Below, piece by piece: positions 172-48,680 of a stretch of DNA of 64,000 bases. The stretch spans positions 1 to 64,000 of the forward strand of contig CAMATH010000006.1 of the NCBI GenBank assembly GCA_945860955.1, given 5' to 3'. How positions within the stretch are numbered: position 1 is the stretch's first letter; every line of letters begins with the position of its first letter. The notes below the pieces were generated by a model. That model had not been told where the DNA came from and searched no databases. It was given only the letters and a program-made list of their open reading frames with translations. This DNA is from Planctomicrobium piriforme (lineage in GTDB: Bacteria > Planctomycetota > Planctomycetia > Planctomycetales > Planctomycetaceae). Both the position numbers and the translations under genes were made by a program.

Positions 172-783
172 TCACTTGGTCGTCACGCGCGGTCGACGTT
201 TTCCCGCTGCCTGTCCGGCCCGCAACCCAGCGGCGAACATTTCCCGGTTGGCTTCCGTGGAATCGTTGGTCCGCAGACCATCCAGGGCGGCAGTCCAAAA
301 TTCCTCCGCGATCTGCAACCGCGACGCCAGCACCCCCAGCATGTAAAAGTTCAGGCTGCGGGCCGACTCCGCTTGATGCGTCAATTCGGTTCCCGCGAAC
401 CATTGCAGTCGGCGATCGTTCGCCTGCGCGGGGGCGGTCTGATCGGCGGGACTCATCGCACCGGGCTTTCGCCACAGGCGATTGACCAGTGCCAACCCGG
501 TGGGCTTGAGAAACGGCAATTGCTTGAGCGCCTCATACCCCTCCAGCGCCAACAGCAGGTCCACACCGCCATGCCCCCGCAGCGGGGAATGCAGATCGCG
601 ACCAATCCGCACCTGGCACGACACACTGCCAAATCGGCGACTCAGACCGTGAATCTCGCTCTTTTTCACGTCGAAACCGGCATGCAGCGCGGCGGCGAGC
701 AACAAATCCCCGGCGAGAACCACCCCCTGTCCACCGAGGCCGGCGATCAGCACGGTCAAAGGGAGATCGGTTGGGGCAGGCAT
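172..783 (-). CDS. iorB: Indolepyruvate ferredoxin oxidoreductase, beta subunit
   Basis: This 203-aa protein is the small (gamma-type) subunit of the 2-oxoacid:ferredoxin oxidoreductase family that oxidatively decarboxylates aryl pyruvates, such as indolepyruvate from transamination of aromatic amino acids, to aryl-CoA using ferredoxin. The N-terminal nucleotide-binding-type loop GLGGQGVVLAGD (about residues 14-25) and the following SEIHGLSRRFGSVSCQVRIG segment are typical, and the length fits the family. Its start overlaps the 3' end of iorA by 28 nt, so the two are probably translationally coupled. The enzyme is cytoplasmic and oxygen-sensitive in characterised members. I found no better start; the chosen ATG leads straight into the conserved loop. 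Confidence 0.9.
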   Translation of the reverse strand: MPAPTDLPLTVLIAGLGGQGVVLAGDLLLAAALHAGFDVKKSEIHGLSRRFGSVSCQVRIGRDLHSPLRGHGGVDLLLALEGYEALKQLPFLKPTGLALVNRLWRKPGAMSPADQTAPAQANDRRLQWFAGTELTHQAESARSLNFYMLGVLASRLQIAEEFWTAALDGLRTNDSTEANREMFAAGLRAGQAAGKRRPRVTTK

Positions 784-2573
784 GTGTCAATCTCCACCAG
801 GTCGGGAACAATTTTCCGCGGGGCGAGAGCCCCTTCCGGACACGCCTGCACGCACAGAGTGCAGCCCACGCACAGATCATGATTGATCAACGGAGCGACA
901 AAATCATGAATGTTCTGCTTTTCGATCGCGACGCAGCCGACCTGGAAACACTCGCCGCACCCGGTACATGCCTCCTCCGACAGGTGCGCCTGCTGGACAG
1001 GCTTCTTTTGTTTGAGCAAGAGGCACGGGGCGCGGCTGATGACCACTGACGGTCCCGGATGGTCGAGCGCCTCGCGCAGAACCGACTCGCTTTCCGCCAG
1101 ATCATACGGATTGATGACCCGAATCCACTCGATGCCAATCGCTTCAATCAGCTTTTCGAGGTTCACTCCCGGACCCGCCTCACCCCCGGCAGTGCGACCG
1201 TTACCGGGATTCCCCTGCAAGCCGGTCATCGCGGTGGTGGAGTTGTCCATCACCAGAACGGTCGTCTGCCCCTGGTTGTAAACCAAGTCGAGCAATGGTC
1301 CCAGTCCCGAGTGGAGCAGCGTCGAATCGCCGATGATCGCCAGGAGTTTGCCGCGGACGCGATCTCCCAGCGCTTTCTCCATACCGATCGCCGTGCCGAT
1401 TCCCGCCCCCATGCAGACGACCGTATCAATGGCGTTCCAGGGTTCGAGCGCGCCGAGTGTGTAGCAGCCTATGTCACCCGCCACCCGGACGCCAATCCGC
1501 GTGATCGCGGTAAAGACCCCCAGATACTGACAGCCGGCACAAATTCTGGGAACGCGGCCGGCGATCGACGGATCTCCATTCTGAATCGGTTGTGGCGATT
1601 TCCGCTCCACACTGAGCTGAATCCGCTCGGGGGTCAGTTCCCCAACCCGGGGAATCCAACCTTCGCTCGCCACCCGAATTCCCAGCGCGCGAACCTGTTC
1701 CTCCAGAAACGGATCCAGTTCTTCGATCACCAGCAATTCATCGACGCGCTCGGCGAATTCGCGAATCGTCTCGGCGGGCAGTGGATACGTCTGCGTCAGT
1801 TTCAACACCGACGCCTCCGGGAACGCCTCGCGGACATATTCATACGCGACTCCCGAGGTGATAATCCCACGGGAACGATTCCGCCATTCGATCCGATTGC
1901 GACCCCAGCGGTCGGCGTGTTCCGCCAGCGCGACCAGCCGGTTTTCGATCGCGGTGTGTCGCAAAATCGCCTGCCGGGGCAACAGCACGTATTTGTCGAA
2001 ATCGCGAACAAATCCCGTAGCGGCGACGCGGTCGAGCTGCGGCTCTCCGACCGCCACCAGGGTCTTGGAGTGGCACAGCCGGGTCGTCAGCCGAAGCAGC
2101 ACCGGCGTGTCGAACCGCTCGCTGAGTTCAAACGCCTCGACCACCAGGTCTTTGGCCTCCTGGCTGTCGGAGGGTTCGAGCATGGGGAGTTTCGCGGCGC
2201 GGGCGTAATGCCGGCTGTCCTGCTCGTTTTGTGAACTGCCTGCCGACGGGTCGTCCCCCACCACCACCACCAGTCCTCCGTTGATCCCCGTATAGACCGA
2301 AGAGAACAGGGGATCGGCGGCGACATTGAGCCCCACGTGCTTCATGGCGACCAGAGCCCGTGCACCGGCGAACGCCGCCCCGAGAGCGACTTCGTAGGCG
2401 ACCTTTTCATTGGTCGACCACATCGCCTGGACTGTCTTGTAGCGGGACAACGACTCGAGGATTTCGGTGCAGGGGGTGCCGGGGTAACTGGTCGCGACGC
2501 TGACCCCGCTTTCGTACGCCCCGCGGGCGATCGCCTGGTTCCCCGACATCAGCAGTTTTTTCTGAGCGGTCAT
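756..2573 (-). CDS. iorA: Indolepyruvate ferredoxin oxidoreductase, alpha subunit
   Basis: This 605-aa large subunit holds the thiamine diphosphate site and two 4Fe-4S clusters. Near the N-terminus SYPGTPCTEILE is the pyrimidine-binding domain signature. In the second half AGDIGCYTLGALEPW and GDSTLLHSGLGPLLD are the pyrophosphate/Mg-binding region. The C-terminus has two ferredoxin-type cysteine runs, CTGCGECFQVGC and CVGCTLCVQACP. The second carries the full CxxCxxCxxxC pattern; in the first the last spacing also fits. It acts with IorB in CoA-dependent oxidation of aryl pyruvates. Its ATG overlaps the stop of the upstream FabD-like gene by 4 nt, which places all three in one operon. Confidence 0.95.
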   Translation of the reverse strand: MTAQKKLLMSGNQAIARGAYESGVSVATSYPGTPCTEILESLSRYKTVQAMWSTNEKVAYEVALGAAFAGARALVAMKHVGLNVAADPLFSSVYTGINGGLVVVVGDDPSAGSSQNEQDSRHYARAAKLPMLEPSDSQEAKDLVVEAFELSERFDTPVLLRLTTRLCHSKTLVAVGEPQLDRVAATGFVRDFDKYVLLPRQAILRHTAIENRLVALAEHADRWGRNRIEWRNRSRGIITSGVAYEYVREAFPEASVLKLTQTYPLPAETIREFAERVDELLVIEELDPFLEEQVRALGIRVASEGWIPRVGELTPERIQLSVERKSPQPIQNGDPSIAGRVPRICAGCQYLGVFTAITRIGVRVAGDIGCYTLGALEPWNAIDTVVCMGAGIGTAIGMEKALGDRVRGKLLAIIGDSTLLHSGLGPLLDLVYNQGQTTVLVMDNSTTAMTGLQGNPGNGRTAGGEAGPGVNLEKLIEAIGIEWIRVINPYDLAESESVLREALDHPGPSVVISRAPCLLLKQKKPVQQAHLSEEACTGCGECFQVGCVAIEKQNIHDFVAPLINHDLCVGCTLCVQACPEGALAPRKIVPDLVEIDTCLPQPISL

Positions 2574-3487
2574 GCAACAACCTGCTGATCGAGAAGCTCC
2601 GCGGCCGACTGAATCGGGGCCGCCGGATCGATGAAAGGTAACATACCGGCGAGCACACTGCCGGGGCCGACATCCAAAAATGACGTCTCGGGAGCGCGAA
2701 GCAGTTCTTCAATCGTCGCTTGCCATTCGACTGGTTGAACCAGCGCATCACACAAAAATTCACTCACTTCACCAGCCGTGCGCAAGTGTCGACCGTCGCG
2801 CGTGCTGACAAACGGCACTTTGGGCGGATGGAGCGCGGTTCGCTCGAACTCGGCACGCATCGCCTGGGCGACGGGTATCAGCAAAGGAGTGTGCATCGCG
2901 CGGGTCGTCGGCAGACGCCGGGCCTGTTTCACTCCCCGGTCACGAGCCGTCGCCAGGATCGCCTCGACCGCCGACTCGCTTCCCGCGATCACCTGCTGTT
3001 TGGGGGAGTTCCAGTTGGCGACCCACACGTCGGGCCGGGGACTCACCAAGGAACGCAACTCACTCGCTTCGAGGCCAATGATCACCCCCATCGCCTGCCC
3101 GGTCCCATCGGCGAATTGTTCCAGCAGACGTTCGACTTCGGTCAGCAGTGCCAGACCGGTCGCGACATCGTAGACTCCGCACGCGGCGGCCGCCGCCCAG
3201 CTCCCCAGGCTGTGACCAACGACACTCTCGGGAGTCCATCCGCGACCCTCCAGCACGGCGGCATACGCACAGGAAACGACGTAGATGACCTGAGATTCTT
3301 GCCGGGAGGGAACATGTTTTCTCCCCGAACCCTCCAGACAGACCTCCGCCACATTGTAACCCAGCCAATCTGACGCTTGCTCGACAATCGCGTCGGCGGC
3401 CGGTTCGCGGCCGATGATATCCCCCCCCATGCCAACGTAGCGGCACCCCAATCCGGGAAACAGCCAGATTTTACTGCGATGCGAAAT
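2570..3487 (-). CDS. FabD-like malonyl/acyl-CoA:ACP transacylase with non-canonical start
   Basis: The protein (about 293-305 aa) has the acyltransferase fold signatures: FPGLGCRYVGMGG at the N-terminus (FPGQGSQ motif in FabD), the nucleophile elbow GHSLGSWAAAAACG, a catalytic-type His in AMHTPLL, and EVGP-like FLDVGPGSVL near the C-terminus. It should transfer an acyl group from CoA to a carrier protein. The frame is open from a stop at 3509-3511, but the only codons able to include FPGLG are ATT (3487), ATC (3469), CTG (3463); TTG at 3451 already removes the FPG part. I therefore extended the gene to the ATT. The last codons overlap the iorA start by 4 nt, unusual company for a FabD, so it may serve a specialised CoA/ACP step and not bulk fatty acid synthesis. 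Confidence 0.8.
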   Translation of the reverse strand: MSHRSKIWLFPGLGCRYVGMGGDIIGREPAADAIVEQASDWLGYNVAEVCLEGSGRKHVPSRQESQVIYVVSCAYAAVLEGRGWTPESVVGHSLGSWAAAAACGVYDVATGLALLTEVERLLEQFADGTGQAMGVIIGLEASELRSLVSPRPDVWVANWNSPKQQVIAGSESAVEAILATARDRGVKQARRLPTTRAMHTPLLIPVAQAMRAEFERTALHPPKVPFVSTRDGRHLRTAGEVSEFLCDALVQPVEWQATIEELLRAPETSFLDVGPGSVLAGMLPFIDPAAPIQSAAELLDQQVVA

Positions 3488-7442: not shown

Positions 7443-8333
7443 TCACAGCAAATCGCTCCGCTTCCCCAGCGGATCGATAAGCCACAACCAGTCATCGAAC
7501 AAGAACTCCAGCCGCGATGCGAACAGCGCGATCCGCCCCATCACCGTGAACGCGAACGACGCCCCGAAGGTGATCATCAGGTACCACACCCCCACCCGGG
7601 CCACCACGCCGTACGCTCCCTTGTGGTCGAGCGAAAAATAGAAGTAGGCGAGCGACGACAGCACTCCCACAATCATCAGCACGTTCCGCACCGACCCCCA
7701 CAGGTCGAGTTGCCCCGCCTGGTTCATCACAACCAACGGCACAATCGTATTCCGGATCTGACTCACAAAGTCGGCATCAAGAAAACTGATCAGCCGAATG
7801 CCGGCGTATGTCCCCACGATGAACGCCAGCGGCCAGCGGGCGATCCAGCCCCCGCGGGGCAACAGCCGGGCGAGCAGCATCGCGCTCATCACCAGCGGAA
7901 CCAGTCCCCACCAGTCGGGTGACTGATTCTCCAGCGAGGGACTCGCCCAGCTCATCTGCGCCGGTGCCAGCCGACCGAGAAGTTTCGGGACAATTCCATC
8001 CCAAAAACCGGCCACCATCAAGTACGCGGCACTCACCCCCACCATCACCGCTTCGGCGAACCGGTAAAACGGGTTGTCTTTGTACAGAAACGAAAAGATC
8101 GACAGCGTCAGAAAGGCGGCGAACCAGATTCCCAGAGTCCGTGGCAGACTCAAGGCCGCCTGGGGATCGTCGGGCCGGGCGCGCACGTAACTGGGTGGAG
8201 CATCCGCAACGGCGGCGGCGGCCGGTTTCAGGTACACCTTTCCCATTCCGTCCCGCGTCAGCATGGCTCGGTACAGCAGAAAGCACCCCGCTAGAACAAA
8301 CAGGATCCCCCAGATTCGTTTTTCACGGTTCAT
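7443..8333 (-). CDS. Multi-pass membrane protein, fifth gene of the uncharacterised operon
   Basis: I do not recognise this 296-aa protein. It starts with a membrane segment (ILFVLAGCFLLYRAML), then a Pro/Asp-containing loop, and then several further hydrophobic helices (TLGIWFAAFLTLSIFSFLY, EAVMVGVSAAYLMVAGF, LVPLVMSAMLLARLLP, NVLMIVGVLSSLAYFYF, GVWYLMITFGASFAFTVMG), for about seven or eight in total. The last, near MGRIALFASRLEFLF, is amphipathic. The ATG overlaps the stop of the preceding gene by 4 nt, so it is the last cistron of the 12257-7443 operon. It probably forms the membrane base of a complex with the other products. No catalytic motif is visible. Confidence 0.8.
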   Translation of the reverse strand: MNREKRIWGILFVLAGCFLLYRAMLTRDGMGKVYLKPAAAAVADAPPSYVRARPDDPQAALSLPRTLGIWFAAFLTLSIFSFLYKDNPFYRFAEAVMVGVSAAYLMVAGFWDGIVPKLLGRLAPAQMSWASPSLENQSPDWWGLVPLVMSAMLLARLLPRGGWIARWPLAFIVGTYAGIRLISFLDADFVSQIRNTIVPLVVMNQAGQLDLWGSVRNVLMIVGVLSSLAYFYFSLDHKGAYGVVARVGVWYLMITFGASFAFTVMGRIALFASRLEFLFDDWLWLIDPLGKRSDLL

Positions 8334-9187
8334 GGGCGGGGCCTTTCAAAACGTTCGGAAAAGGCGGCGATGTTCCCCAGCACAATCAGGCCGATGATCA
8401 GCAGGTGGGCCCACAACTGCGGAGCCATGCGGCGGACACCGTCCTGCATCTTCGGCTCAGAGTATTTGGGATAAACCTCTCCCAACGCCACCTCATACTC
8501 GGCGGCCCCTTTGATCGCCGCCAGAATCCCCAGCAGTTGCCCCGGAATGTACGGGTACGCCTGCGGAGCCTGCACCGCCGTCGCCCCGACCGCCAACGGG
8601 ATCTTCAAGGGACTCGAGGCGTATTGCACCCATTCTTTCAGTCCGGGAAATCCCGCACTGATGGAAACCAACAGGTCCATGTCCGCCAGGCTGGTGAGGT
8701 CGGCCGTCAGGGGGAGATCGTCGAGTTTTCGATCGCCGTCGTCGGTCGGAAATTCGGTCCGGAAACTGTTGGCAATCGTCTTGATCACCACCTCTTTGCC
8801 CGGCTTGTAACCCAGGTTGACGTAGTCGACTCCGTACTTGAAGCCAAAGTCGGCGAACTCGTCGACAAGGACCTGATTGATCGCCCGCTCAACCAGCGGT
8901 TTTCCGTCGGGCCACAGGGTCATCAGCACCAATTTGTGTCGTTTCAGGCAGCAGTGCCGCATCAGTGCGGTCGCCATGGGAGCCAATTCCCCCTGGGCGC
9001 TGGGGCCGTAATCGAAGGAAATCAACACCAGCGAACCATCGGGCAGCGATTCGATTTTGTCGAACACAGCCATCACCAGCGGCGTTGGTTTTTCGGGAAC
9101 CCGCGCCTGCGTCAGTTGGGGGATGGCGACCGCCAACAGCATGCTCAAAAAGATCCACCGGCGATCGAGACGTCGCAACCAGCCCAT
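8330..9187 (-). CDS. Membrane-anchored extracytoplasmic protein, fourth gene of the uncharacterised operon
   Basis: This 285-aa protein has an N-terminal membrane anchor or uncleaved signal (RRWIFLSMLLAVAIPQL) and a C-terminal membrane helix (PQLWAHLLIIGLIVLGNIAAF). The roughly 220-residue middle domain looks alpha/beta: SLVLISFDYGPSAQGELAPM, KLVLMTLWPDGKP and MDLLVSISAGFPG could be strand-loop-helix units, followed by PLAVGATAVQAPQAYPYIPG. The layout strand, small-residue loop, GQLLGIL is echoed in the C-terminal domain of the second gene's product, but I cannot prove homology. The gene begins 3 nt after the stop of the preceding cistron and its stop overlaps the next start. Function unknown. 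Confidence 0.8.
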   Translation of the reverse strand: MGWLRRLDRRWIFLSMLLAVAIPQLTQARVPEKPTPLVMAVFDKIESLPDGSLVLISFDYGPSAQGELAPMATALMRHCCLKRHKLVLMTLWPDGKPLVERAINQVLVDEFADFGFKYGVDYVNLGYKPGKEVVIKTIANSFRTEFPTDDGDRKLDDLPLTADLTSLADMDLLVSISAGFPGLKEWVQYASSPLKIPLAVGATAVQAPQAYPYIPGQLLGILAAIKGAAEYEVALGEVYPKYSEPKMQDGVRRMAPQLWAHLLIIGLIVLGNIAAFSERFERPRP

Positions 9188-9190
9188 GTT

Positions 9191-9883
9191 TCACCCGTCT
9201 CCCGAACCGAGGTAGGAACGGTTGATTCCCAGCAGCACTTTTAGCGACGTGGCGGCGACCCCCAGGGCGATGCCGATCATGATCGCCCGTTGGCCTGCGG
9301 TGTTGAAGACTCCCATGATGATCGTCGTCAGACCAGGAATCGAAAACGCGGAGTACTCGTCGGGAACCTGCGCCGTCAGCACCGTCCCCGCGTAGGTTCT
9401 CCCCAGCAGCACAACGAACGCGGTCAGCAACAGCAACGTCGCTTCGGCGTTTTTCAATCGGAACGCCCGAAATGCCGCCGACGCGACGTAAAACGCGAGT
9501 AATGCGAACATCGTCGCCACCAGCGGATTGTAGGCGTATTCGAACAGCCACCACTCGGCACTCCCTTCGGCCTGGTAAGAACCCGCCCAGGGATGCTGGG
9601 GGTCTTCAACCGGCACCCCGATCTTCAGCAACCCGACTCCGAGCGTCACCACAAAACTGACGAGAGTGACGGCCGCGTATCCCCAACCCGCTTGGCGGGC
9701 GGAAATCTTTTGCAGGTTTTGCAGGCAGAGGTTGGCCCCTCCCAGAATGAACGCGACGGCGGCCAGCACTTCGAACCACTGCCCGATGGCATCCTGCCAC
9801 GATTGGGCCGCTGGTATGAAGTAGGCGGCGATCACCACACTTCCCGCGACGGCGGCGATGAGCCAGGGAATGGTACTTTTCAT
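9191..9883 (-). CDS. Integral membrane protein, third gene of the uncharacterised operon
   Basis: An unrecognised 230-aa protein that is mostly hydrophobic, with about six predicted helices: TIPWLIAAVAGSVVIAAYF, WFEVLAAVAFILGGANL, WGYAAVTLVSFVVTLGVGL, LVATMFALLAFYVASAAF, EATLLLLTAFVVLLG and RAIMIGIALGVAATSLKV. A soluble loop around residues 85-105 (PVEDPQHPWAGSYQAEG) precedes helix four. It follows the DUF6754-like gene by 6 nt and precedes the next cistron by 3 nt. There is no transport or redox motif that I can name; a structural role in a membrane complex is the simplest reading. Confidence 0.8.
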   Translation of the reverse strand: MKSTIPWLIAAVAGSVVIAAYFIPAAQSWQDAIGQWFEVLAAVAFILGGANLCLQNLQKISARQAGWGYAAVTLVSFVVTLGVGLLKIGVPVEDPQHPWAGSYQAEGSAEWWLFEYAYNPLVATMFALLAFYVASAAFRAFRLKNAEATLLLLTAFVVLLGRTYAGTVLTAQVPDEYSAFSIPGLTTIIMGVFNTAGQRAIMIGIALGVAATSLKVLLGINRSYLGSGDG

Positions 9884-9889
9884 GCGGTC

Positions 9890-11122
9890 TCAGTCCCCCC
9901 CCAGGCATGTGGACATCAGAAACTTCAACCACTCACCCGGGCCGGCCGAGTCGGGTCGCAAGACAACCGCCGTCTTCAGCAGGCACCCCACAACCAGCAC
10001 CGCCGCCGCCAGCACTTTTCCCGCGTCTTGTCCTTTGAGACTCCCGAGTTGTTGCGGCTCGCGCGTGAGATAGGCCGAAGCGGCGAACAGTTCCTCACCG
10101 ATCAGGGTGTAGTCGCAGCCTGCGACGAAAAAGGGCAGTTGCGTTGCTTCGGAGGTTCCCGCGATTTGAATCGCCCCCACCGAATTTCCCGTTTCGGCCA
10201 GAATCAAAGATTCGGCGTAGAATATCCCCGCGTAGAAGCAGGCGGCGGGGCGTTCGCGCACCATGTAACCGGTGATGTGGGCGACAAACGCGAACTGCTC
10301 ATCGGTGACGTAATAGATGTTGTTCGGGTTGTAGGCGTCGGACCGGTCGGCGGCGAGATACGCAGCCGCCACCGCCTCCTGAGCCGCCGTCATCACGAGC
10401 GACCGGGTCGTCGGCACGACAATCTCGGCATCGTAGTCGGCGGCCGTCTCGGCGACATGCGACAGAATCGCCACACCCGCGACAGTCGCGATCTCGTTCA
10501 TGTCTTCAATCCCGGTGATGAATAGGCAGGGACGCCCCATCTCCGTCGCCCGACCAACCGCTTCCCGCATGGCGGTCAAGGCGGCGATCTCGCGGACGTG
10601 CAACGATTTTCCCGCTTTCGTCCGCTCGGTGTAGAAAATCACCAGGCCGCATACGATCACCAGAATGACGGCGAAACTCGTACGACTGCTGTCAAACCAC
10701 TGGCGGATGGCTCGTGTTTCGCCAGAGGTCGCCACGGGAGGGCTGACGGAACCATCGACGGCGATCGCGACCGCCGAATAACGATAGGCGGCCGACGGCC
10801 GGCAGCGTCGGTCGGTGTATTGCGCGACGCCGTAGGGAACTTCGAACGATTCGAGAACGGCGTCATCAGACAGCGGTTCGTCGATCAGTGTTCGATCGAT
10901 GCGGTAAGCGCGAATCCGGCGGGGTTTGAAATCGGGGTGATCATCCCCGGATAAAGTCCACTTCAAATCGATCGCGTTACCGTTGTCACCCGGGTGATCA
11001 GCGGCGACCAGATCGTGCGGGGGGGCCGGCCCCACTCCAGCGGGCTGAGCGACCGCGCGTGCAGTAGTCCAGATCAGGCAGAAGCTGCCAGCGAGGATCC
11101 ACAGGGCGTAACGGCAGGTCAC
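9890..11122 (-). CDS. Signal-peptide protein with FN3-like region, membrane helix and DUF6754-like domain
   Basis: The GTG at 11122 gives a 410-aa protein opening with a good signal peptide (TCRYALWILAGSFCLIW, cleavage after AVA) and has GAAGAG 10 nt upstream. An ATG at 11152 is the alternative and would overlap the previous gene. Residues about 45-160 read like a fibronectin III-type domain (IDLKWTLSGDDHPDF, YRIDRTL, AYRYSAVAIAVDG). A membrane helix follows (SFAVILVIVCGLVIFY). The remaining 230 residues form an alpha/beta domain (GRPCLFITGIEDMNEIATVA, AEIVVPTTRSLVMTAA, FVAHITGYMVRERPAACFYA, GAIQIAGTSEATQLPFFVAG) that I associate with the uncharacterised family DUF6754. Function unknown. It is the second gene of the operon and its most distinctive member. 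Confidence 0.8.
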   Translation of the reverse strand: MTCRYALWILAGSFCLIWTTARAVAQPAGVGPAPPHDLVAADHPGDNGNAIDLKWTLSGDDHPDFKPRRIRAYRIDRTLIDEPLSDDAVLESFEVPYGVAQYTDRRCRPSAAYRYSAVAIAVDGSVSPPVATSGETRAIRQWFDSSRTSFAVILVIVCGLVIFYTERTKAGKSLHVREIAALTAMREAVGRATEMGRPCLFITGIEDMNEIATVAGVAILSHVAETAADYDAEIVVPTTRSLVMTAAQEAVAAAYLAADRSDAYNPNNIYYVTDEQFAFVAHITGYMVRERPAACFYAGIFYAESLILAETGNSVGAIQIAGTSEATQLPFFVAGCDYTLIGEELFAASAYLTREPQQLGSLKGQDAGKVLAAAVLVVGCLLKTAVVLRPDSAGPGEWLKFLMSTCLGGD

Positions 11123-11129
11123 GTGGCGA

Positions 11130-12257
11130 TTACTCTTCGATGAGTTCAACATTCGCCCGGGGAACCAGCACAAGGTCTCCCGCGGCCGTGCGCACTTCCA
11201 ACACCCGAGCCCGGGAACCCGACGCGAGAACGGTCGGTTCGGGGGGGAGTCGGGCGACGGTGCCGATCGTACCAAAGTACGGATCGCGAATGATACGGAC
11301 GAATGCTCCCAGCGACAGAGGCCGACCGACCGGGGGCTCCGACGCGACGTGGCTGGTTTCGCTGGCACTCCAGGGGATGACGATTTCGGGGCGGAGGACG
11401 CCCGCCCGAATCTGAGTCGCGCCGTTACAGGCGGCCTCCGCTCCCGCACGGGAGTTGAGCAGCGTCCAAGTTCGGTCCGCCATCGCGACGTCGCCAAAGC
11501 CTTCGGTAATGATCAGGGTGAGGCCGACCCGTTCGGAACCGGTCGTGGCGACTCCCAGGTCGTACCCCAGGAAATCGCGGAGATCTTGATCATCAATGCC
11601 ACCGGTGATGATTGCCGAGCATCCCAGCGCACGCGCCCGAGCCAGCGCCAGGGCCGTGACTCTCCCGCCACCAACGACAATCGCGCCCGCACAATCGGGG
11701 GACAATTTCGACTCGGTCAATTCTTCGCGCGGGGATGCGCAGACCGACTGAATCGGGCCGTACGCTTCGCCACCGATCCCAAAAATCCCCTGGATGAACG
11801 TCGCCTCGGCTTCCATGACCGCCCCTTCCTGGGGCAGGACTTCGACAACCGTGCCAGCGAGAAACGCGGCGACGCGGACCGGGCGGGAAGGGCCGCGCAG
11901 CATCACCTGGCCGGTCACCCGCGAAATCGCCTCGACCGTGCCGTTCACCGGTGAGAGGCAATGGCGTTTGAACCAACCGAAGATGCCGGCGGATTCCGCG
12001 AGCTTCTCGCCAATGTTGACCGACGTTCCGACCGGATGCCGGGCCATAACCCGGGCCACTTCGTCTCCCGAAATGCCGAGCAGATGCGCCACATTGACGG
12101 GAGTGATCACCCCGGGGAGATCGGTCTGGGCGACGGCGGACTGAGCCGCGACTGTGTCCCCCACCTGCACCAGGACCGTCCCGGCGATCGGGAGTGCCCG
12201 TCGGCAACGATGCCGGCAGCGGTGCAGAACCTTGAGTCCAGGGGCGTACGCGTTCAT
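11130..12257 (-). CDS. Barrel-sandwich/KOW-like soluble protein, first gene of the uncharacterised operon
   Basis: The ATG at 12257 (MNAYAPGLKVLHRCRHRCRR) gives 375 aa. An upstream in-frame start at 12317 adds a segment that does not look coding. The N-terminal part has the rhythm of a biotinyl/RnfC-type barrel-sandwich (LPIAGTVLVQVGDTVAAQ and LSPVNGTVEAISRVTGQVMLRG). A central alpha/beta part contains GAIVVGGGRVTALALARA, GCSAIITGGIDDQDL and TLIITEGFGD. The C-terminal 60 residues (FVRIIRDPYFGTIGTVARLP, LASGSRARVLEVRTAAGDLV) resemble a KOW/SH3-like barrel. There are no transmembrane helices, so it is probably cytoplasmic and may dock on the membrane proteins encoded downstream. Leading gene of the 12257-7443 operon. 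Function unknown. Confidence 0.75.
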   Translation of the reverse strand: MNAYAPGLKVLHRCRHRCRRALPIAGTVLVQVGDTVAAQSAVAQTDLPGVITPVNVAHLLGISGDEVARVMARHPVGTSVNIGEKLAESAGIFGWFKRHCLSPVNGTVEAISRVTGQVMLRGPSRPVRVAAFLAGTVVEVLPQEGAVMEAEATFIQGIFGIGGEAYGPIQSVCASPREELTESKLSPDCAGAIVVGGGRVTALALARARALGCSAIITGGIDDQDLRDFLGYDLGVATTGSERVGLTLIITEGFGDVAMADRTWTLLNSRAGAEAACNGATQIRAGVLRPEIVIPWSASETSHVASEPPVGRPLSLGAFVRIIRDPYFGTIGTVARLPPEPTVLASGSRARVLEVRTAAGDLVLVPRANVELIEE

Positions 12258-18911: not shown

Positions 18912-21034
18912 GTTTACTCTTTCCGCTGTTTCTCGCCGGGTTGGGCGCGCTCGGATTGCCGCTGCTGTTTCACCTGGTGCGTCGGACGCCGCGCGGCCGG
19001 CAGGAATTCAGTTCGCTGATGTTCCTCGCGCCGACGCCCCCCCGTCTGACCCGTCGCAGTCGGCTGGATCAGATTCTACTTCTGGTGCTGCGGTTGGCCG
19101 CCCTGGCGCTGTTGACGCTGGCGTTCGCGCGCCCGTTCCTGCGCGAGTCGGCTTCTCTGGCGCTGACCGATCTGCCAGGAAGGCGCGTGGCGATTCTGAT
19201 CGACACCAGCGCCAGCATGCACCGTGCCGGCCTCTGGCAACAGGCGGTTCAAGCCGCGGGGCGGGAACTCGACAGCCTGAATCCGCAGGACGATGTCGCC
19301 CTGTACACGTTCGACGATCGCCTGCGGACCGTTCTTGGTTTCGAGGAGAATGGTCCCGTCCCGGAGAAGCCAGACCTCATTCGACAACGTCTGAAGGAAC
19401 TCTCCCCCACGTGGGGCGGGACTGATCTGGGGGGTGCGCTGACGTCCGTCGCCGCCGACCTCGACGCGAGTGGTGATGTCCAGCAGACCCCGCTCGAACC
19501 GCAGATTGTTCTCATCGGCGATCTGCAAAAGGGGAGCCGACTCGAATCGCTCGAGAGTTTTGAGTGGCCCCAGCGCGTCAAAGTCGTGTTGCGTCAGCTC
19601 CAGCCGGCGGCAACCACCAACGCCTACGCGCACATTCTGGTCGACGAGACGGCGGCCCCCGCCGAGGCGGTCCGTGTGCGTGTGGTGAATTCCGCCAATG
19701 CGAAAACCGAACAGTTCACCATTGGCTGGACGCTGCCGGACAAATCGAAGGAAGCAGCGACCGCCGTCCCGGTCTATGTCCCCGCCGGTCAAAGCCGCGT
19801 TCTGCGTCTCCCCCGCACCCTGGAGCAGGCGTCCGCCGACCGGATTGAACTCCGTGGCGATGACGACGACTTCGACAATCTCTTTCATGTCGTCCCCCCC
19901 ACCCGACGCAAGGTCTCGGTCTTGTACTGGGGCGATGACTCGGAAGACGAGTCTCAGGGACTGCGCTACTACCTGAAGCTCGCGACCGCCAACGACATCC
20001 TGCGCGAGATCGACATCACAACGTTCGACCCCGAGCGACTGCAATCGAAGTCGGACGATTCCCCCGTTCCTTTGGTCTTACTTTCTCGTTCTCCCACCCC
20101 GGAACAACGGGCGACACTTCTGAAATTCGTGGAGAACGGCGGAGTCTTGCTGTTGGCACCTGTCGACGCTTCCGGGGCCAACGCGCTCCCCGATTTCTTG
20201 GACTCGGTCGATTCTGTCACCGCCGCCAAACAGGCCGACGGGGGCTACTTGCTGTTGGGGGAAATCGACTTCTCGCATCCGCTGTTCGCCCCCTTCGCCG
20301 TGCCTCCCTACAGCGACTTCACCAAGATTCACTTTTGGCGAAGCTGGAAACTCCAGTGGAAAGATCCTCTGCCAGGCGGTTCGGGAACCGATGGTGCCGG
20401 CTCGTCTGGTACAACAGTCATCGCGCGATTCGACAATGGCGATCCCGCGTTGGTGGAACGTCGCTTGGGATCGGGCCGGGTCTTCGCGCTGGCCAGCAGT
20501 TGGCGGCCGGTCGACAGCCAGTTCGCCTTGTCGAGCAAATTTGTCGCGTTTGTGGGTAGCCTGGTCGACTTGGCCGTGGGAGACGTGGAAGTCTCCCCGA
20601 CGCTCGCCGTCCATCAGCCGGCCCCTCTTCCCACAGTGTACTTGAATCAACCCGGGATCGTAAAAACTCCCGGCGGGACCGAGGTCGATGTCGCGGCCGG
20701 TTCGACCCTGTTTCTGGCGACCGACTCGCCCGGAATCTACGAATCACGAATCGCGGGGGAAACGTCCCGGTTCGCGGTCAATCTCGCCGGGAGTGAAAGC
20801 AACACCGCGCCGCTCGAAGTCGAGCAGTTGGAACAGCGTGGCGTTCGCCTGGGGACCGCGCTCACACGTGCCGAACGGATCGACCGGGTGCGCCAGCAGC
20901 GCGACACCGAACTCGAAGGCCGGCAGAAACTGTGGCGCTGGTTGCTGGTGGGCGTGTTGGGGCTGGTGATTGTGGAAACGCTGTGGGCCTCACGGGCCGA
21001 GCGGCTGGTTGAGCAGGCGAGGGTTTCCTCGTGA
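18908..21034 (+). CDS. BatA-like membrane protein with vWA domain
   Basis: This 708-aa protein has two N-terminal membrane helices typical of the BatA N-terminal domain (PLFLAGLGALGLPLLFHLVR and LLLVLRLAALALLTLAF), followed by a vWA domain with an intact MIDAS pattern, ILIDTSASMHRAG, and TWGGTDLGGAL. A large periplasmic middle region includes a possible glutamine-amidotransferase-like segment (LLKFVENGGVLLLAPVDASG). A C-terminal helix (LLVGVLGLVIVETLW) closes the protein. It is likely the membrane-bound partner of the MoxR/DUF58 pair. Its start overlaps the DUF58 stop by 4 nt. Confidence 0.92.
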   Translation: MSLLFPLFLAGLGALGLPLLFHLVRRTPRGRQEFSSLMFLAPTPPRLTRRSRLDQILLLVLRLAALALLTLAFARPFLRESASLALTDLPGRRVAILIDTSASMHRAGLWQQAVQAAGRELDSLNPQDDVALYTFDDRLRTVLGFEENGPVPEKPDLIRQRLKELSPTWGGTDLGGALTSVAADLDASGDVQQTPLEPQIVLIGDLQKGSRLESLESFEWPQRVKVVLRQLQPAATTNAYAHILVDETAAPAEAVRVRVVNSANAKTEQFTIGWTLPDKSKEAATAVPVYVPAGQSRVLRLPRTLEQASADRIELRGDDDDFDNLFHVVPPTRRKVSVLYWGDDSEDESQGLRYYLKLATANDILREIDITTFDPERLQSKSDDSPVPLVLLSRSPTPEQRATLLKFVENGGVLLLAPVDASGANALPDFLDSVDSVTAAKQADGGYLLLGEIDFSHPLFAPFAVPPYSDFTKIHFWRSWKLQWKDPLPGGSGTDGAGSSGTTVIARFDNGDPALVERRLGSGRVFALASSWRPVDSQFALSSKFVAFVGSLVDLAVGDVEVSPTLAVHQPAPLPTVYLNQPGIVKTPGGTEVDVAAGSTLFLATDSPGIYESRIAGETSRFAVNLAGSESNTAPLEVEQLEQRGVRLGTALTRAERIDRVRQQRDTELEGRQKLWRWLLVGVLGLVIVETLWASRAERLVEQARVSS

Positions 21035-21062
21035 CAGAATTCCCAGGTGGAGAACCGAGACC

Positions 21063-24000
21063 ATGACGGCATCCCAAGGCCCCCAGCTCCGTTCGGTCGC
21101 GCGCGTTCACGACGGAATGCGGATGCAACAGGTTCAGCGGACGTTGCGGACGGAACTGCACAAAGTCGCCAGCCGATTCCGCCAATTGCGGTTGTGGAAG
21201 GCGCTGGCAATCGCCTGGTTCCTGGCGGCGGTTGTTGGATTCTGCATCTGGGCGTCGGCGAACCCCGTGGGACGGCCGCAGGTGGTCGTCCCACTGCTGG
21301 GCGGATTGGCAGCGACTCTGGCGATGGCGGGAGTCTGGCTCTCCAAGTCGGGCGATCCCGATCCGGTGAAAGTCGCCCAGGAGATTGAGCGCACGTACCC
21401 GGAATTGAAGAGCTGTCTGTTGGCCGCCATCGAGCAACGTCCCGATCTGCCGGACGGACGGTTTGGCTTCCTGCAATCGTCGGTCATTCTGCAGGCGGTG
21501 AGTCATTCCGCATTGAACGACTGGCGCAAGGTTGTCCCCAGTCGCAAGCTGACCGCGGCGATCGTCGCCCAATTCGTCGCGCTGGCCCTGTTCGTCGGCA
21601 CGCTGGTGGGGGTCTCGCTGAAGCCGGGGCCCAGCGTGGCTGCTGCCGCCGCGAACCAGGCAGCGAGCGCTCTCGCGGTACAGGCGACGGGCGAGTTCAC
21701 GTTCACGGTCGAGCCGGGGGATTCCGAGATTGAAAAGGGGACGAGTCTCCTGGTCTTGGCTCGCGTGACCGGTCCGATTCCCGCCGACGCGTCCTTGTCG
21801 ATTCAGGAGAACACCGACTCCGACCACGCGCAGATCCCCATGGTTCGCAGTCTCAACGACCCGGTCTTTGGCGGCAGAATTCCCATCGTCACCACCCCGC
21901 TCGCGTACCATGTGGAAGTTGGCGGGCACGTCTCCCCCACGTATCGCGTCTCGGTCTTTGAGTATCCACGACTCGAACGGGCCGACGCGAAGTTGCAGTA
22001 CCCGGCGTATACCGGACTCGAAGAACGCGTGATTCAAGACGTGCGTTCGATGTCAGTCGTCGAGGGAACGACGGTCACGTTGCAGTGCTATCTCAACAAA
22101 CCGGTCACGTCGGCGACTTTGACGGAAACGGGACATGACCCGATCGCCCTTCATTCCGTCCCGGGGGATAAGCCGCTGTATGCAGCGTCGATTCTGTGCG
22201 ATCGCACCCGCAAGCTGACCGTCGCGCTGGTCGACGAGGCGGGACGTCAGAACGTCCAACCGGCGGAGATCAAGATCCAGGTCGTCCCGAATCTTCCGCC
22301 CACAGTGAAGCCGACGTTTCCCGCTCGCGATGTCGAAGTCTCGGCCATCGAGGAACTCGATGTGAAGGCGACGGTGTGGGATGATTTCGGTGTCCCGCGC
22401 GCGGGGGTCACTTACTCGCTCGCCGGTCGTGTTCCCACCGAGGCGATTCTGGGGGAACAGATCGCCGGGAAAGACCGCAAAGAGGTCAATCACTCCATTC
22501 GACTCGAGGATTTGAAAGCCGAGCCGGATGAACTGGTCGCGTACTACTTCTGGGCCGAGGATATCGGTCCGGACGGACTGGTTCGGCGGACGCTGGGCGA
22601 CATGTACTTCGCCGAGGTTCGACACTTCGAAGAGATCTTCCGTCAGGGGGAAGCCGAGACACGCAACCAGCAGCAGGCCCGGCAACGTCAACAGCAGCAG
22701 CAACAGCAGGGAGGAGGCAGTCCCAATGCCAACGCGGCGCAGCAGTTGGGCGAACTGCAGAAGCAGATTGTCGGCGCGTCCTGGAAGTTGATACGCCGGG
22801 AGATTGGGAGCCAGCTCACCGAATCGTTCCTGGAAGATGCGAAGCAAGTCGCGCAGTCGCAGAACGAAGCGCTGGAACAGGCCAAGCAGTTGGCCGACAA
22901 GGTGAATGACGCCAAGGCCCGCGAGCATGTCTCGCGGGTGGTGACCGCGATGGAACAGGCCGCCACGCTGCTGGACGAAGCACAAGCGACGCCTGCCCGC
23001 GAGCCGTTGCCACTCGCTTTGGTCGCGGAACAGGCCGCCTACCAGGCGCTGTTGAAACTGCGGGCGCGAGAACACGAGATCGTCCGCCAGCAGCAGCAAC
23101 AGCAACAGCAGCAGGGACAGCCGAACGCGCAGGGAAGGTCGGCTCAACAGCGCCAGCAGATGGAGCAGTTGGAACTCAAAGACGATGAGAACCGTTACGA
23201 GACCCAGCGACTGGCGCAATCGCAGAACGAATCGACCGAACAGCGCGAAAGTCGGCAGGTATTGAATCGCTTGCGGGAACTCGCCCGCCGACAGCACGAC
23301 CTCAACGATCAGCTCAAAGACCTGCAGTCGGCACTCGAAGAAGCCAAGTCGGCGGAAAAGAAGGAAGAGATCCGCCAGCAGCTCAAGCGGTTGCAGGAGG
23401 AGCAGGAGCAGATTCTGCGTGACACCGACGAACTGAAAACGCGGATGGAAAGTCCAGAGAACCAGGAACGGATGTCCGCCGAGCGGGAACAGTTGGAGCA
23501 GGCCCGCGACCAGGCGCAGCGCGCTTCCGAGGCGCTGGAGAAAGAGCAGGCGACCAAAGCGGCCGCCGCCGGGGCTCGCGCCGAGCGGGGATTCGACGAC
23601 CTGCGCGAGGAGTTCCGCCGTCAGACGTCGGGACAGTTCCGCGACGAAATGCGCGATCTGCTCGACCAGGCCCGTCAACTGGAGCGGGCCGAGCAGGAAT
23701 TGGGACGGAAGATCACCCAGGCGATCGAGCCGGACGCGGAAAACCGGTCGCTGCGAACCGAGACGGGGCGTGAGAAGATCGCCGAGGGATTGGAGCAGCA
23801 ACGCAAACAACTCTCAACGATCGTCGACAAGATGCAGCAGACGATTCAAGAGGCGGAACAGTCGGAACCGTTGCTGTCGGAGAAGCTCTACGACGCCGCC
23901 CGCGAAGTGCAGAGCAAGAACGTCTCGCGAGCGCTCGAAGCGGCCCGACAATCGGTCGCGCAGGGACTTCTCGAAGACGCCCGTCAACTGGAACAGGCGG

Positions 24001-25346
24001 CGGGCAAGGGAATTGAAGAGTTCCGCGAAAAGATCGAAAGCGCCGCCGAGTCGGTGCTGGGTGACGAATCGGAATCGTTACGACGGGCTCGCGAAGAATT
24101 GCGAAATCTGTCGCGCGAAGTCAACGACGAGATCGAACGCAAAGATCCGAGTGGAAATCGACCCCGAGATCCCAACGCGCGGGAAGAGCGAACCCGGGGC
24201 CAGGCGGATCGCAATGGGAATCCCGACGAGAACGAGGGGGCCGAAGGAGAAGATTCCCAAAGTCAAAATGGCACCGGTCGACGTCGCGGACAGCGCGGGT
24301 CCGCGACGGAATCGGAAGAGAATGCCACCGGGGAAACCCCCGAGGGAGAGACTGATCCCGCCGACCCGGACGGGCAAGCAGGTGGTCGGCAACAACGTCG
24401 CCGCCGACGGCCCGGCGAACAGGGAGAGAACGGCGAAGCTGGCGAGCCGGACGAAAACGGCGACCAATCACCTGGCGACCGAGCCAATTCCAACGGTCAG
24501 CGCCAGCGTCGACAGCAAGGCCGACCGGGTGACGCGAATCCTGAAGGGGACGCGGAACCGTCGGAGCAACCCGGCCAAGCGGGGGAACGCGGCCAACAGG
24601 GGGAACGAGGACGTTCCGGCCAGCCTAACCCACGCGGTCAACAAGCAGCCGGCGAACCCGGTAGCCCCAATGACGACGAGGCCACGAACCAGCCAGTAGA
24701 GGGGGATCCGATGGAAGAGAACGCCAACGAAGCGACAGATCCTCAGCAGCGTCCCGGTCAGTCCGGTCAGCAGAGACGCGATGGTCAACGAGGACGCGGC
24801 GCGCGGAATGGTTCGCCGAACGGGGAACGGACTGGCGAACCCAACGATGAGCCAGCCGATGGTCAACAGGCCGAAACACAACCGGGTCGGGAACGGAATC
24901 CGAACCAGCAAGCCAACCCGCGCGGCGCGGGGAGCGACGCGACCGGACAACGGGACAATGCGGCGGGTCCGTTCGACCCGACCCGCGCCACCGACCCCGG
25001 AGGATTCGCTCCCTTCACCGGTCGCGACTTCCGCGAATGGTCCGATCGGCTGCGCGATGTGGAGGAAATGGTGAATGAGCCGGACCTCCGCGCCGAGGCG
25101 GCCCGAATTCGCGACCGCGCCCGAAACATTCGAGCCGAGGCGCGACGCCACTCGGCTGAACCGAACTGGGACATGGTGCGAATGCAGATCGCCGAGCCGT
25201 TGGCCGAGTTGACCAATCGGGTCAACGAAGAACTCCTGCGGCGGAATTCCCGACAGAATGTGGTTCCGCTCGATCGCGATCCGGTTCCTCCAAAGTATTC
25301 CGAGAAGACCCGCCGGTACTACGAACAATTGGGGAGCGGCCAGTGA
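21063..25346 (+). CDS. Giant membrane-anchored coiled-coil protein with low-complexity tail (DUF4175-like)
   Basis: The ATG at 21063 gives 1427 aa. Two membrane helices lie near the N-terminus (ALAIAWFLAAVVGFCIWAS and VVVPLLGGLAATLAMAGV), and a third near residue 170. An extracytoplasmic region with beta-rich, Ig-like segments follows. From about residue 500 the sequence is Gln/Glu/Arg-rich coiled coil with poly-Gln runs (22690-22715 and 23085-23115). From about residue 1020 to 1310 it becomes a Gly/Asn/Pro/Glu/Arg-rich disordered stretch, and a short ordered C-terminus contains FREWSDRLRDVEEMVNEP. The overall plan resembles DUF4175-type proteins found in such operons. It probably spans the periplasm as a tether. 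Its stop overlaps the next GTG by 4 nt. Confidence 0.85.
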   Translation: MTASQGPQLRSVARVHDGMRMQQVQRTLRTELHKVASRFRQLRLWKALAIAWFLAAVVGFCIWASANPVGRPQVVVPLLGGLAATLAMAGVWLSKSGDPDPVKVAQEIERTYPELKSCLLAAIEQRPDLPDGRFGFLQSSVILQAVSHSALNDWRKVVPSRKLTAAIVAQFVALALFVGTLVGVSLKPGPSVAAAAANQAASALAVQATGEFTFTVEPGDSEIEKGTSLLVLARVTGPIPADASLSIQENTDSDHAQIPMVRSLNDPVFGGRIPIVTTPLAYHVEVGGHVSPTYRVSVFEYPRLERADAKLQYPAYTGLEERVIQDVRSMSVVEGTTVTLQCYLNKPVTSATLTETGHDPIALHSVPGDKPLYAASILCDRTRKLTVALVDEAGRQNVQPAEIKIQVVPNLPPTVKPTFPARDVEVSAIEELDVKATVWDDFGVPRAGVTYSLAGRVPTEAILGEQIAGKDRKEVNHSIRLEDLKAEPDELVAYYFWAEDIGPDGLVRRTLGDMYFAEVRHFEEIFRQGEAETRNQQQARQRQQQQQQQGGGSPNANAAQQLGELQKQIVGASWKLIRREIGSQLTESFLEDAKQVAQSQNEALEQAKQLADKVNDAKAREHVSRVVTAMEQAATLLDEAQATPAREPLPLALVAEQAAYQALLKLRAREHEIVRQQQQQQQQQGQPNAQGRSAQQRQQMEQLELKDDENRYETQRLAQSQNESTEQRESRQVLNRLRELARRQHDLNDQLKDLQSALEEAKSAEKKEEIRQQLKRLQEEQEQILRDTDELKTRMESPENQERMSAEREQLEQARDQAQRASEALEKEQATKAAAAGARAERGFDDLREEFRRQTSGQFRDEMRDLLDQARQLERAEQELGRKITQAIEPDAENRSLRTETGREKIAEGLEQQRKQLSTIVDKMQQTIQEAEQSEPLLSEKLYDAAREVQSKNVSRALEAARQSVAQGLLEDARQLEQAAGKGIEEFREKIESAAESVLGDESESLRRAREELRNLSREVNDEIERKDPSGNRPRDPNAREERTRGQADRNGNPDENEGAEGEDSQSQNGTGRRRGQRGSATESEENATGETPEGETDPADPDGQAGGRQQRRRRRPGEQGENGEAGEPDENGDQSPGDRANSNGQRQRRQQGRPGDANPEGDAEPSEQPGQAGERGQQGERGRSGQPNPRGQQAAGEPGSPNDDEATNQPVEGDPMEENANEATDPQQRPGQSGQQRRDGQRGRGARNGSPNGERTGEPNDEPADGQQAETQPGRERNPNQQANPRGAGSDATGQRDNAAGPFDPTRATDPGGFAPFTGRDFREWSDRLRDVEEMVNEPDLRAEAARIRDRARNIRAEARRHSAEPNWDMVRMQIAEPLAELTNRVNEELLRRNSRQNVVPLDRDPVPPKYSEKTRRYYEQLGSGQ

Positions 25347-29999: not shown

Positions 30000-31225
30000 C
30001 GAGAGGCTTCACGCTCGAGACCCCTGCCTCCTTGAGGGGCAGGTGAATGAAACTGGAGGCTATACTCCGCGCGGTTTGCGCTGAGACATTGGCCCAGGGG
30101 CGCGTTTTTTCGCATCGGGCGCACATCGGGGCAGGCACTCAGAAAGTGCCGCCTACGTAGCCCGCATTTTCTAAATGCGCGGCCCGCTGTGCGTGCGGCG
30201 GTCGAGAGACGTACTGGGGGCGGCCAACGACGTTGACCGAACTGTTTGACGAGTCGCCGACGTTAAACGTGTTGCCGAAGCGGCAGCGCCCGGGGTCGTT
30301 CGCATGGCCCAGGGGCGCGTTTTTTCGCATCGGGCGCACATCGGGGCAGGCACTCAGAGTGTGCCGCCTACGTAGCCCGCATTTTCTAAATGCGCGGCCC
30401 GCTGTGCGCGCGGCGGTCGAGAGACGTACTGGGGGCGGCCCACGACGTTGACCGAAACGTTGGGCGAGTGGCCGACGTTATACTCCGCACAGTGTCAAAT
30501 CAAACGTTTCGTGGCCCCAGACCCCATCCGGCTCGCCCGGATGGTGAATGAGATCGGCAGCTAGAAAAGAGTCCCCCCCCATCCTTGATCAAGACCCCAT
30601 CCACCTCGTGTGGATTGGTGAATGAGATCCTCGCTCTGTCTGACAGAATCGGCATCAAACGAAACCCGTCCGTATCGCGAAGCGATTGGTGGCCAATCGT
30701 CGCAGGGAACGCCGGACGCATTCATGTCTCGCAAAATAGCACGACATCGCCAGTGGCACCCGTTGCTTTGGTTACCGACGTCGTGCGTGGCAGACAGAGC
30801 GAAGATCTGATTCACCATCCACACGAGGTGGATGGGGTCTGGACCGCGCAATGTGGTTTTGGACTAGCCATCGATCTTTCTCCCCATCCGCTCAAGGCGG
30901 ATGGGGCCGTCGCCTATACCTGCCGCCAACCGGCTCTCGCATGACCCCATCCGGCTCAATTGCAATGTCGCGTTTTCGGACGCGTGGAGTATAATCGTGT
31001 TGCCGAAGCGGCAGCGCCTGGGGTCGTTCGCATGGCCCAGGGACGCGTTTTTTCGCATCGGGCGCACATCGGGGCAGGCACTCAGAGAGTGCCGCCTACG
31101 TTGCCCGCATTTTCTCAATGCGCGGCCCGCTGTGCGTGCGGCGGTCGAGTGACGTACTGGGGGCGGCGCACGACGTTGTCCGAACTGTTTGGCGAGTCGC
31201 CGAGGTTATCCCGCTCGTGGAATAT
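30000..31225. repeat. 1.2 kb non-coding repeat field
   Basis: No gene is supported here. It contains three ~175-nt direct repeat copies (30091-30265, 30306-30480, 31034-31208), each starting at GGCCCAGGG(G/A)CGCG and containing CGGGGCAGGCACTCAGA and GTACTGGGGGCGGC. Copies two and three share a further 37-nt upstream extension (from about 30269 and 30997). Between copies two and three lie an inverted repeat (30592-30642 with 30791-30840) and sequence shared with 47895-48052. Short open frames in the repeats encode only the repeat itself. Confidence 0.8.
30592..30840. repeat. Inverted repeat pair, arms about 50 nt
   Basis: The left arm 30592-30642 and right arm 30791-30840 are near-perfect reverse complements; both contain the CACCTCGTGTGG / CCACACGAGGTG core and the CAGACAGAGCGA motif. 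The spacing is about 150 nt. The right arm continues into a segment nearly identical to 47895-48052, so this looks like a small non-autonomous element or fold-back repeat. Confidence 0.65.
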
Positions 31226-48052: not shown

Positions 48053-48680
48053 CTTGCCCAAGACTGCATCCACCCGCAGCAGACGCCATCCCGCTCGGGT
48101 TCAATGTCGCGATATCGGCCGCGCTGGGCATAGGTCGGTAAACGTCACTCGTCGTTTGCCTTCACCGTCGAGCGAGCAGTCGTTTCCGATACGGGGATTC
48201 AATCTGTCTCCACTCAACTCTGCCGAAGATGTCCAGACCGCGGCGTCGTAGGAACGCCGTCCGCCACATGTCGCGACGACGCTCCGCGGCGTCGCGCCCG
48301 ACGGCGCAGCCGGCGGCCAGGTCGGTAAACGTCACCTATCGTTTGACTGCATCGTCGAGCGAGCAGTCGTTTCCGATACGGCGATTCAATCTGTCTCCAC
48401 TCAACTCTGCCGAAGATGTCCAGACCGCGGCGTCGTAGGAACGCCGTCCGCCACATCTCGCGACGACGCGCCTGCGGCGTCGCGCCCGACGCCGCAGGCG
48501 GCGGTTGGGTCGGTAAACGTGACCCGTTGTTTGGTTTCACCGTCGAGCGAGCAGTCGTTTCCGATGCGGCGTTTCAATCTGTCTCCACTTGACTCTGCCG
48601 AAGATGTCGAGACCGCGGCGTCGTAGGAACGCCGTCCGCCACATGTCACGACGACGATCCTGCGGGGTTCCGCTCGACGC

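Follow-up and report, generated by a model that had tools for sequence, protein, structure and literature searches.

Five adjacent genes, here called A to E, in a 64,000-nucleotide stretch of the Planctomicrobium piriforme genome (hereafter the window) probably encode most of an obligate, ATPase-coupled machine of the inner membrane, which they would form together with M, a protein of the MutL family; we put the probability of this reading at roughly 0.55. A is soluble, B carries the DUF6754 domain, and C, D and E are membrane proteins. What we observe is the gene set itself, its order, the co-occurrence of its members, their joint retention, natural fusions of M with A and intact ATP-site motifs in M. 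We know of no described system with this gene set, and its novelty, judged against the open-access literature, lies in a new assembly of known kinds of domain. Pfam has no family for three of the five proteins, and B contains a domain to which no function is assigned. Loci of this set are found in Planctomycetota, Zixibacteria, Cloacimonadota, Fermentibacteria and other lineages, and its genes are retained despite dispersal; the cells that have it probably depend on what it does.

Co-occurrence and retention after dispersal

In a phylum set of 294 genomes, which includes that of the window, M exceeds its cut-off in 80 genomes, A has a match in 71 (in one of them, G053, to a fragment of 28 residues at the edge of a contig) and DUF6754 occurs in 76. 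A is found with M in 70 genomes and with DUF6754 in 68; M and DUF6754 coincide in 70, and all three are found together in 67. M and A lie within 8 kb of each other in 58 of 70 genomes, and A is no more than 12 kb from DUF6754 in 50 of 68. Leaving aside the window's own genome, 15 of 16 genomes in its family have DUF6754, as do none of the four from the same class outside that family and none of 14 control genomes. M occurs without DUF6754 in 10 genomes, five of which carry GlmE.

The strongest evidence for a joint function is the retention of D and E, because it is independent of operon order. In the family of the window, some genomes keep only A-B, or A-B-C, together. Thirteen genomes, chosen by us and not at random, were searched for D and E. 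Both are retained elsewhere in all six genomes with a split operon (G024, G087, G105, G137, G194 and G283); in G024, which consists of one contig, A-B lies at about 0.29 Mb, M at about 0.79, E at about 2.30 and D at about 3.53 Mb. Four genomes in which the operon or a cassette is present (G266, G291, G217 and G122) have D and E as well, and both are absent from the three genomes without DUF6754 (G152, G121 and G167). The preliminary description of this DNA had named homologues scattered without one another as evidence against a common unit; in the genomes tested there is some dispersal, and never did we find D and E without B, or B without D and E.

Gene order across lineages

A scan of the GTDB collection gave at least 559 relatives, of which the best 80, a sample biased towards the query, were analyzed. 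By record title, as grouped by us into lineages, these comprise Planctomycetota (35), Zixibacteria (13), Fermentibacteria/Aegiribacteria (7), Cloacimonadota (5), Neomarinimicrobiota, Stahlbacteria and Gemmatimonadota (3 each), and Latescibacterota, Riflebacteria, Coatesbacteria and Acidobacteria (1 each). The remainder are six records titled only 'bacterium' and one titled Puniceispirillum (L150), which may be mis-binned and is kept outside the eleven named lineages. The nearest lineage-titled locus belongs to the Planctomycetaceae (L072, 81% identity). Within the phylum, regions were taken from 40 of the 76 genomes with DUF6754, picked for spread and not at random.

A profile search of open frames found B-C-D-E consecutive, that is in order and on one strand among the profile matches, in 71 of the 80 cross-lineage loci (contig ends cut three of the nine misses) and in 32 of the 40 phylum loci (four of eight misses). 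Each of the eleven named lineages has at least one such locus. The recurrence of this order is far above chance, and the check proposed in the preliminary description, whether the gene order recurs across phyla, thus came out positive. A stands immediately before B in 47 of the 80 and 28 of the 40 loci. With gene starts set mechanically, the median gaps are 9 nt for B-C, 1 nt for C-D and -4 nt for D-E, and 3 of 400 junctions have a gap longer than 300 nt. In one Neomarinimicrobiota locus (L080, 5371-12194), almost 7 kb separate B from C.

The probable partner ATPase M

Clustering of neighboring frames brought out three more conserved genes, which lie upstream of A in most cases. By profile, 42 of the 80 and 25 of the 40 loci contain M. 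The counts for S, a protein of about 125 aa, are 33 and 28, and those for P are 19 and 9; P is a small membrane protein, and one of the two P proteins scanned has a weak match to a bacterial PH family. Hence the five genes stand as an uncharacterized, recurring multi-protein unit, as had been described, but not as a complete one: the larger unit has M, S and sometimes P upstream. In two loci (L045 and L062) the cassette has S nearby, and A was not found in the examined stretch.

A is present in 51 of the 80 loci, and in 40 of these M adjoins it or is fused to it. In all three Neomarinimicrobiota loci (L074, L080 and L083) M and A form one open frame of 874 (cut) to 1006 aa. The fusion in L083, with 999 aa, matches MutL at 12-484 and the A profile with an E value of 3.4e-166, and has a weak RnfC_N match at 691-735. 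M matches the MutL family (PF13941) with an E value of 3.7e-126; M proteins are about 600 aa long, and the family model spans 450 positions. The motifs TDxGSTTTK and DxGGATTD are present in 15 of 15 M proteins and SGGVL[SA]H in 14 of 15. We take these three to be the phosphate-1, phosphate-2 and adenosine motifs of ASKHA ATPases, so that M carries the full motif set of this superfamily, as does the M protein of the window's own genome.

The gene upstream of A in the window is a divergent TPR-like open reading frame (judged by eye), and M was therefore sought elsewhere in the genome. It was found on another contig (G000:C56), with S on a third (G000:C13). Among the 80 loci, 12 genomes of our choice, not random ones, were searched for M, and all 12 have it, including one Cloacimonadota and one Stahlbacteria genome in which it lies outside the examined locus.

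The family name of M suggests another explanation, namely that the gene set reactivates or chaperones a B12-dependent mutase, M being named after the MutL of glutamate mutase. The strong PF13941 match would fit such a role. Yet GlmE (PF06368) of glutamate mutase, the B12 mutase that was tested, exceeds its cut-off in 5 of the 294 genomes, all of which have M and lack both A and DUF6754, and in none of the 76 genomes with DUF6754, the window's own included. The phylum thus has 'MutL' proteins of at least two kinds, and those linked to DUF6754 are not part of glutamate mutase; a mutase device in the wider sense we regard as very unlikely. This has a practical consequence for annotation: among the 80 phylum genomes in which a MutL-family protein exceeds its cut-off, 75 have no GlmE that does so, and the name 'glutamate mutase MutL' is therefore misleading there. 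In the open-access literature on PF13941 and glutamate mutase L, as represented by titles and abstracts, nothing related to the gene set was found.

Some genomes contain what looks like a second, diverged M-A type, with weak A matches beside extra MutL copies (G169:C30, C34, G124:C37, G011:C95 and G039:C308); in G169 a weak A match and MutL lie within one open frame of 839 aa. Three strong copies of MutL, each about 470 aa long, occur in another genome (G197), which has neither A nor DUF6754.

A search of PADLOC-DB anti-phage profiles gave no match for A to E or for one M at E ≤ 0.1, and a weak one (0.045) for one S. The lack of a PADLOC match for A to E or M led us to reject a defense system.

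Multiple cassettes

More than one BCDE cassette is present in 12 of the 80 and 5 of the 40 loci, and ten loci contain at least three copies of B. Trees were built for eight of these ten (six from Zixibacteria and two from untitled bins, six of the eight with three full cassettes; L037 and L140 were left out). When B, C, D and E are each given a tree of their own, the first, second and third positions are each monophyletic in all four, and the nearest relative sits at the same position in 24 of 24 cases for B and in 22 of 22 for each of C, D and E. Distances in the four trees correlate with coefficients of 0.84-0.93. This concordance indicates that in these eight loci the four genes evolve as one unit, with three distinct BCDE units kept in fixed order. 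Recent duplication also occurs, since copies 2 and 3 of L140, and both copies of L061, are mutual nearest relatives. In the two three-cassette genomes searched, those of L106 and L131, a single M match was found in each. One M thus appears to serve three BCDE modules of ancient divergence in Zixibacteria and some unnamed bins, and the full machine may consequently be a hetero-oligomer of different BCDE modules.

These observations also bear on the possibility that the genes are co-regulated members of one pathway and not a single complex. Such a pathway would accommodate the broken operons of several genomes, and the interfaces of a complex are deduced only. Retention after dispersal, cassette-by-cassette coevolution and the M-A fusions argue against it, as does the lack of a consistent enzyme family among the homologues of A, C, D and E. 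We thus consider a mere pathway rather improbable.

Protein A

Judged from its sequence, A is built from adaptor-like modules and has no nameable catalytic site. At E ≤ 0.1, Biotin_lipoyl matches the N-terminal barrel sandwich in 22 of 31 homologues (best 4.4e-6), RnfC_N matches 18 (best 1.4e-6), NQRA_N six (best 0.0076), and a C-terminal KOW is matched in nine. The protein of the window alone has only weak Pfam matches and reaches 14.0 bits against KOW (PF00467), below the cut-off of 22.3. The structural model of A (predicted local distance difference test score, pLDDT, 86.5) resembles KOW domains of Spt5/DSIF (5ohq, Z 8.3, root-mean-square deviation (rmsd) 1.5; 4ytl, Z 8.0, rmsd 1.1). The modeled residues 153-296 resemble swivelling beta/beta/alpha domains of rifampin phosphotransferase (Z 9.4), UPF0107 (8.9), RraA (8.8) and pyruvate kinase, with Z values down to 8.2, little above the best Z of 7-8 usual for models without relatives. 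Foldseek gave no match to the model at E ≤ 0.001; the comparison that yielded the Z values barely covered the N-terminal barrel sandwich. A sequence search of the PDB with A returned a weak KOW match and unrelated chains only, and nothing convincing for the window protein alone. Altogether, the Pfam matches of the homologues and the modeled KOW fold agree with the earlier description of A as a soluble, barrel-sandwich and KOW-like protein. No lysine is conserved in at least 95% of the 31 homologues, so A lacks the conserved target lysine of a lipoyl or biotinyl carrier.

The matches to RnfC_N and NQRA_N, together with the several membrane partners, would be in line with an Rnf/Nqr-related electron-transfer or ion-pumping complex in which A plays the part of RnfC or NqrA. 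However, Biotin_lipoyl matches more A homologues than either family, A, C, D and E have no cysteine that reaches 95% conservation, and B has a single one (C338). Furthermore, no Rnf or Nqr subunit family is among the matches listed for homologues of C, D and E. Given the missing cysteine pattern, we reject a redox complex and rate this the least probable of all alternatives considered.

Protein B

B had been described as DUF6754-like; with 381 bits against PF20539 (E value 2.6e-114, cut-off 27 bits) it is a true member of the family. No paper on DUF6754 or PF20539 was found in the open-access PMC literature, and a description elsewhere is possible. Hydropathy agrees with the proposed membrane helix between FN3 and DUF6754, and the FN3 domain was borne out at the level of the family: at E ≤ 0.1, Pfam fn3 is matched by 7 of 30 homologues, the best with 3.1e-5, and columns 29-131 of the B profile match FN3 chains in the PDB. 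The window's B alone has no Pfam fn3 match and gave nothing convincing against PDB sequences. Some B proteins lack the FN3 part (L032, L036, L045 and L062).

The main rival to an ATPase-coupled machine is a gated transporter or ion channel, in which C and E would form the pore, DUF6754 an RCK-like nucleotide or ion gate, and M-A would set its state. In a model of DUF6754, C and D (an artificial read-through chain, pLDDT 80.4), the best matches of DUF6754 include the RCK domains of MthK and GsuK and a domain of KefC (Z 9.0-8.0, rmsd 3.2-3.5 over about 115 residues). Many polar residues of DUF6754 are, moreover, kept in at least 95% of 30 homologues (R179, R193, E196, Q278, E306, E312, Q321, D339, E345 and E346). 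Z values of 8-9 are, however, near the level of models without true relatives; universal stress protein scores 8.9, dehydrogenases alike, and many Rossmann folds about 8. Foldseek found no match to this model at E ≤ 0.001, and the homologues of C and E belong to no consistent channel or transporter family. As such, the modeled likeness of DUF6754 appears to be that of a generic Rossmann fold only, and we judge a channel or transporter unlikely.

Proteins C, D and E

Hydropathy supports the earlier assignment of three membrane proteins: C and E look polytopic, and D has a large domain flanked by one hydrophobic helix at each end. Taken alone, none of the three window proteins has a Pfam match, and their homologues (25, 40 and 30, respectively) share no consistent Pfam family; DUF7521 weakly matches 8 of the 25 C homologues. 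Apart from chance-level matches, no enzyme family was found for A to E at E ≤ 1, in keeping with the absence of a nameable enzymatic motif noted earlier.

From the positive charges, FN3 of B is predicted to lie outside and DUF6754 inside, and the domain of D is likewise predicted outside the membrane, with both ends of D inside; this topology follows from hydropathy and charge. DUF6754 and the domain of D both show an alternating alpha/beta pattern in the model, from which a two-partner assembly of B and D had been suggested. This suggestion found no support. A comparison of the B and D profiles gave a probability of 9% and aligned one membrane helix only, which led us to reject homology; the two domains are predicted on opposite sides of the membrane, and their resemblance is generic and Rossmann-like. 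DUF6754 took up the list of fold matches, and the D domain was barely covered in that search. Homology of C with E and of A with B was rejected by profile comparison as well. PDB sequence searches with the profiles of D and M gave no match.

Proposed mechanism

We propose that C and E form the core in the membrane, that B crosses it with FN3 outside and DUF6754 inside, and that D holds its alpha/beta domain outside. A would be a soluble adaptor linking this core to M. Each contact has its own basis: M, binding ATP, would contact A, as the fusions suggest; A would contact B, as their adjacency suggests; B, C, D and E would constitute a membrane module, as suggested by the cassettes; and the coupling to ATP is suggested by the motifs of M. 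The ATP cycle of M may thus drive or gate the machine, in the way that actin-like ATPases act on envelope complexes: turnover would change the DUF6754 side and thereby act on the outside domains of B and D, so that something is built or moved in the envelope. We tentatively regard the whole, at slightly less than even odds, as an undescribed class of ATPase-coupled cell-envelope machine in eleven named lineages, where a MutL-type ASKHA ATPase and its adaptor would drive the four-protein BCDE module, possibly as a hetero-oligomer in Zixibacteria and the unnamed bins with three modules. With the partner ATPase named, function becomes accessible to gene removal and complex prediction.

Several points weigh against an obligate machine of this kind. 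The physical complex, its topology and its coupling to ATP are all inferred from sequence. Many genomes show no linkage between M-A and BCDE, so that the case for their contact rests on co-occurrence and on the adjacency of A and B; the p-values of this co-occurrence (Fisher, below 1e-48) ignore relatedness. Six of the 76 genomes with DUF6754 have no M over the cut-off (all are drafts, 76-95% complete) and eight have no A, while A occurs without DUF6754 in G053, G067 and G153, the last of which is 99% complete and has M. Finally, two of ten D matches (G024 and G217) contain one stop codon in the matched span.

The locus and its surroundings

The five genes run on the minus strand from window position 12257 to 7443 (Table 1). 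Their coordinates, strand and tight spacing (+7, +6, +3 and -4 nt for A-B, B-C, C-D and D-E) confirm the co-directional genes of the preliminary description, each at the position given there. The best start of B is the GTG at 11122; the sequence used for searches includes two extra codons upstream of it.

Table 1. Positions of the five genes in the window and of M in the same genome.
Feature	Position	Strand	Description
Gene A	11130..12257	-	375 aa; soluble, adaptor-like: barrel sandwich, swivelling beta/beta/alpha-like domain, C-terminal KOW
Gene B	9890..11122	-	410 aa; GTG start; helix, FN3, helix, DUF6754, helix
Gene C	9191..9883	-	230 aa; polytopic membrane protein, no Pfam family
Gene D	8330..9187	-	285 aa; alpha/beta domain (predicted outside) between N- and C-terminal helices, no Pfam family
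Gene E	7443..8333	-	296 aa; polytopic membrane protein, no Pfam family; 4-nt overlap with D
M, own genome	G000:C56:13028-14446 (L153)		after a methyltransferase-like and before a sigma-factor-like frame (by eye), away from the window operon

Assignments of neighboring genes were made by eye. Genes resembling plsX, fabH and fabD follow E in eight loci, all from Planctomycetota (L078, L087, L089, L092, L093, L094, L118 and L125), and frames resembling short-chain dehydrogenases begin at most 100 nt after E in three others (L082, L095 and L104); a link to lipids is possible. Genes resembling those for glycine cleavage, TonB receptors and ExbB lie around Fermentibacteria loci. Such neighbors occur in a single lineage or in a few at most, and for that reason they were excluded as parts. 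Downstream of E in the window, frames at 172-783 and 756-2573 (minus strand) resemble a two-subunit 2-oxoacid oxidoreductase of the indolepyruvate type, and an acyltransferase-like frame (2570-3451, minus strand) overlaps them.

Elsewhere in the window, a frame of 1458 aa (20970-27697, plus strand) has a long low-complexity part rich in Q, R, G, N and E, with an AT skew of 0.25-0.28 at 22001-26000; it is overlapped by 4 nt by a 784-aa frame that, by eye, resembles a membrane protein of the vWA/glutamine-amidotransferase type. A tandem array lies at 48132-48681 (period 188, 2.9 copies, 90% matches) and a tandem duplication of 215 bases at 30090-30480 (1.8 copies, 94% matches).

Comparison with known systems

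B is a full member of PF20539, and its partners A, C, D, E and M come from the loci described here and not from the Pfam entry. With the RCK domains of MthK, GsuK and KefC, B shares a Rossmann-like model and a predicted cytoplasmic domain next to membrane helices, but no sequence match. A has the barrel-sandwich domain in common with Rnf and Na+-NQR, whereas conserved cysteines are absent from A and the other subunit families were unseen. MutL/GlmL is part of the clostridial glutamate mutase system. M belongs to the same family and has the ASKHA motifs, yet differs in its adjacency or fusion to A and in the absence of GlmE from all genomes with DUF6754. Actin-like (ASKHA) ATPases that act on envelope complexes are found in PilM-PilNOP, FtsA and MreB-MreCD. 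Pil and other subunits of such ASKHA-envelope systems gave no Pfam match at E ≤ 1 in A to E or in three scanned M-containing proteins; the outline is the same, a soluble ATPase of the actin fold, an adaptor, and bitopic and polytopic membrane proteins.

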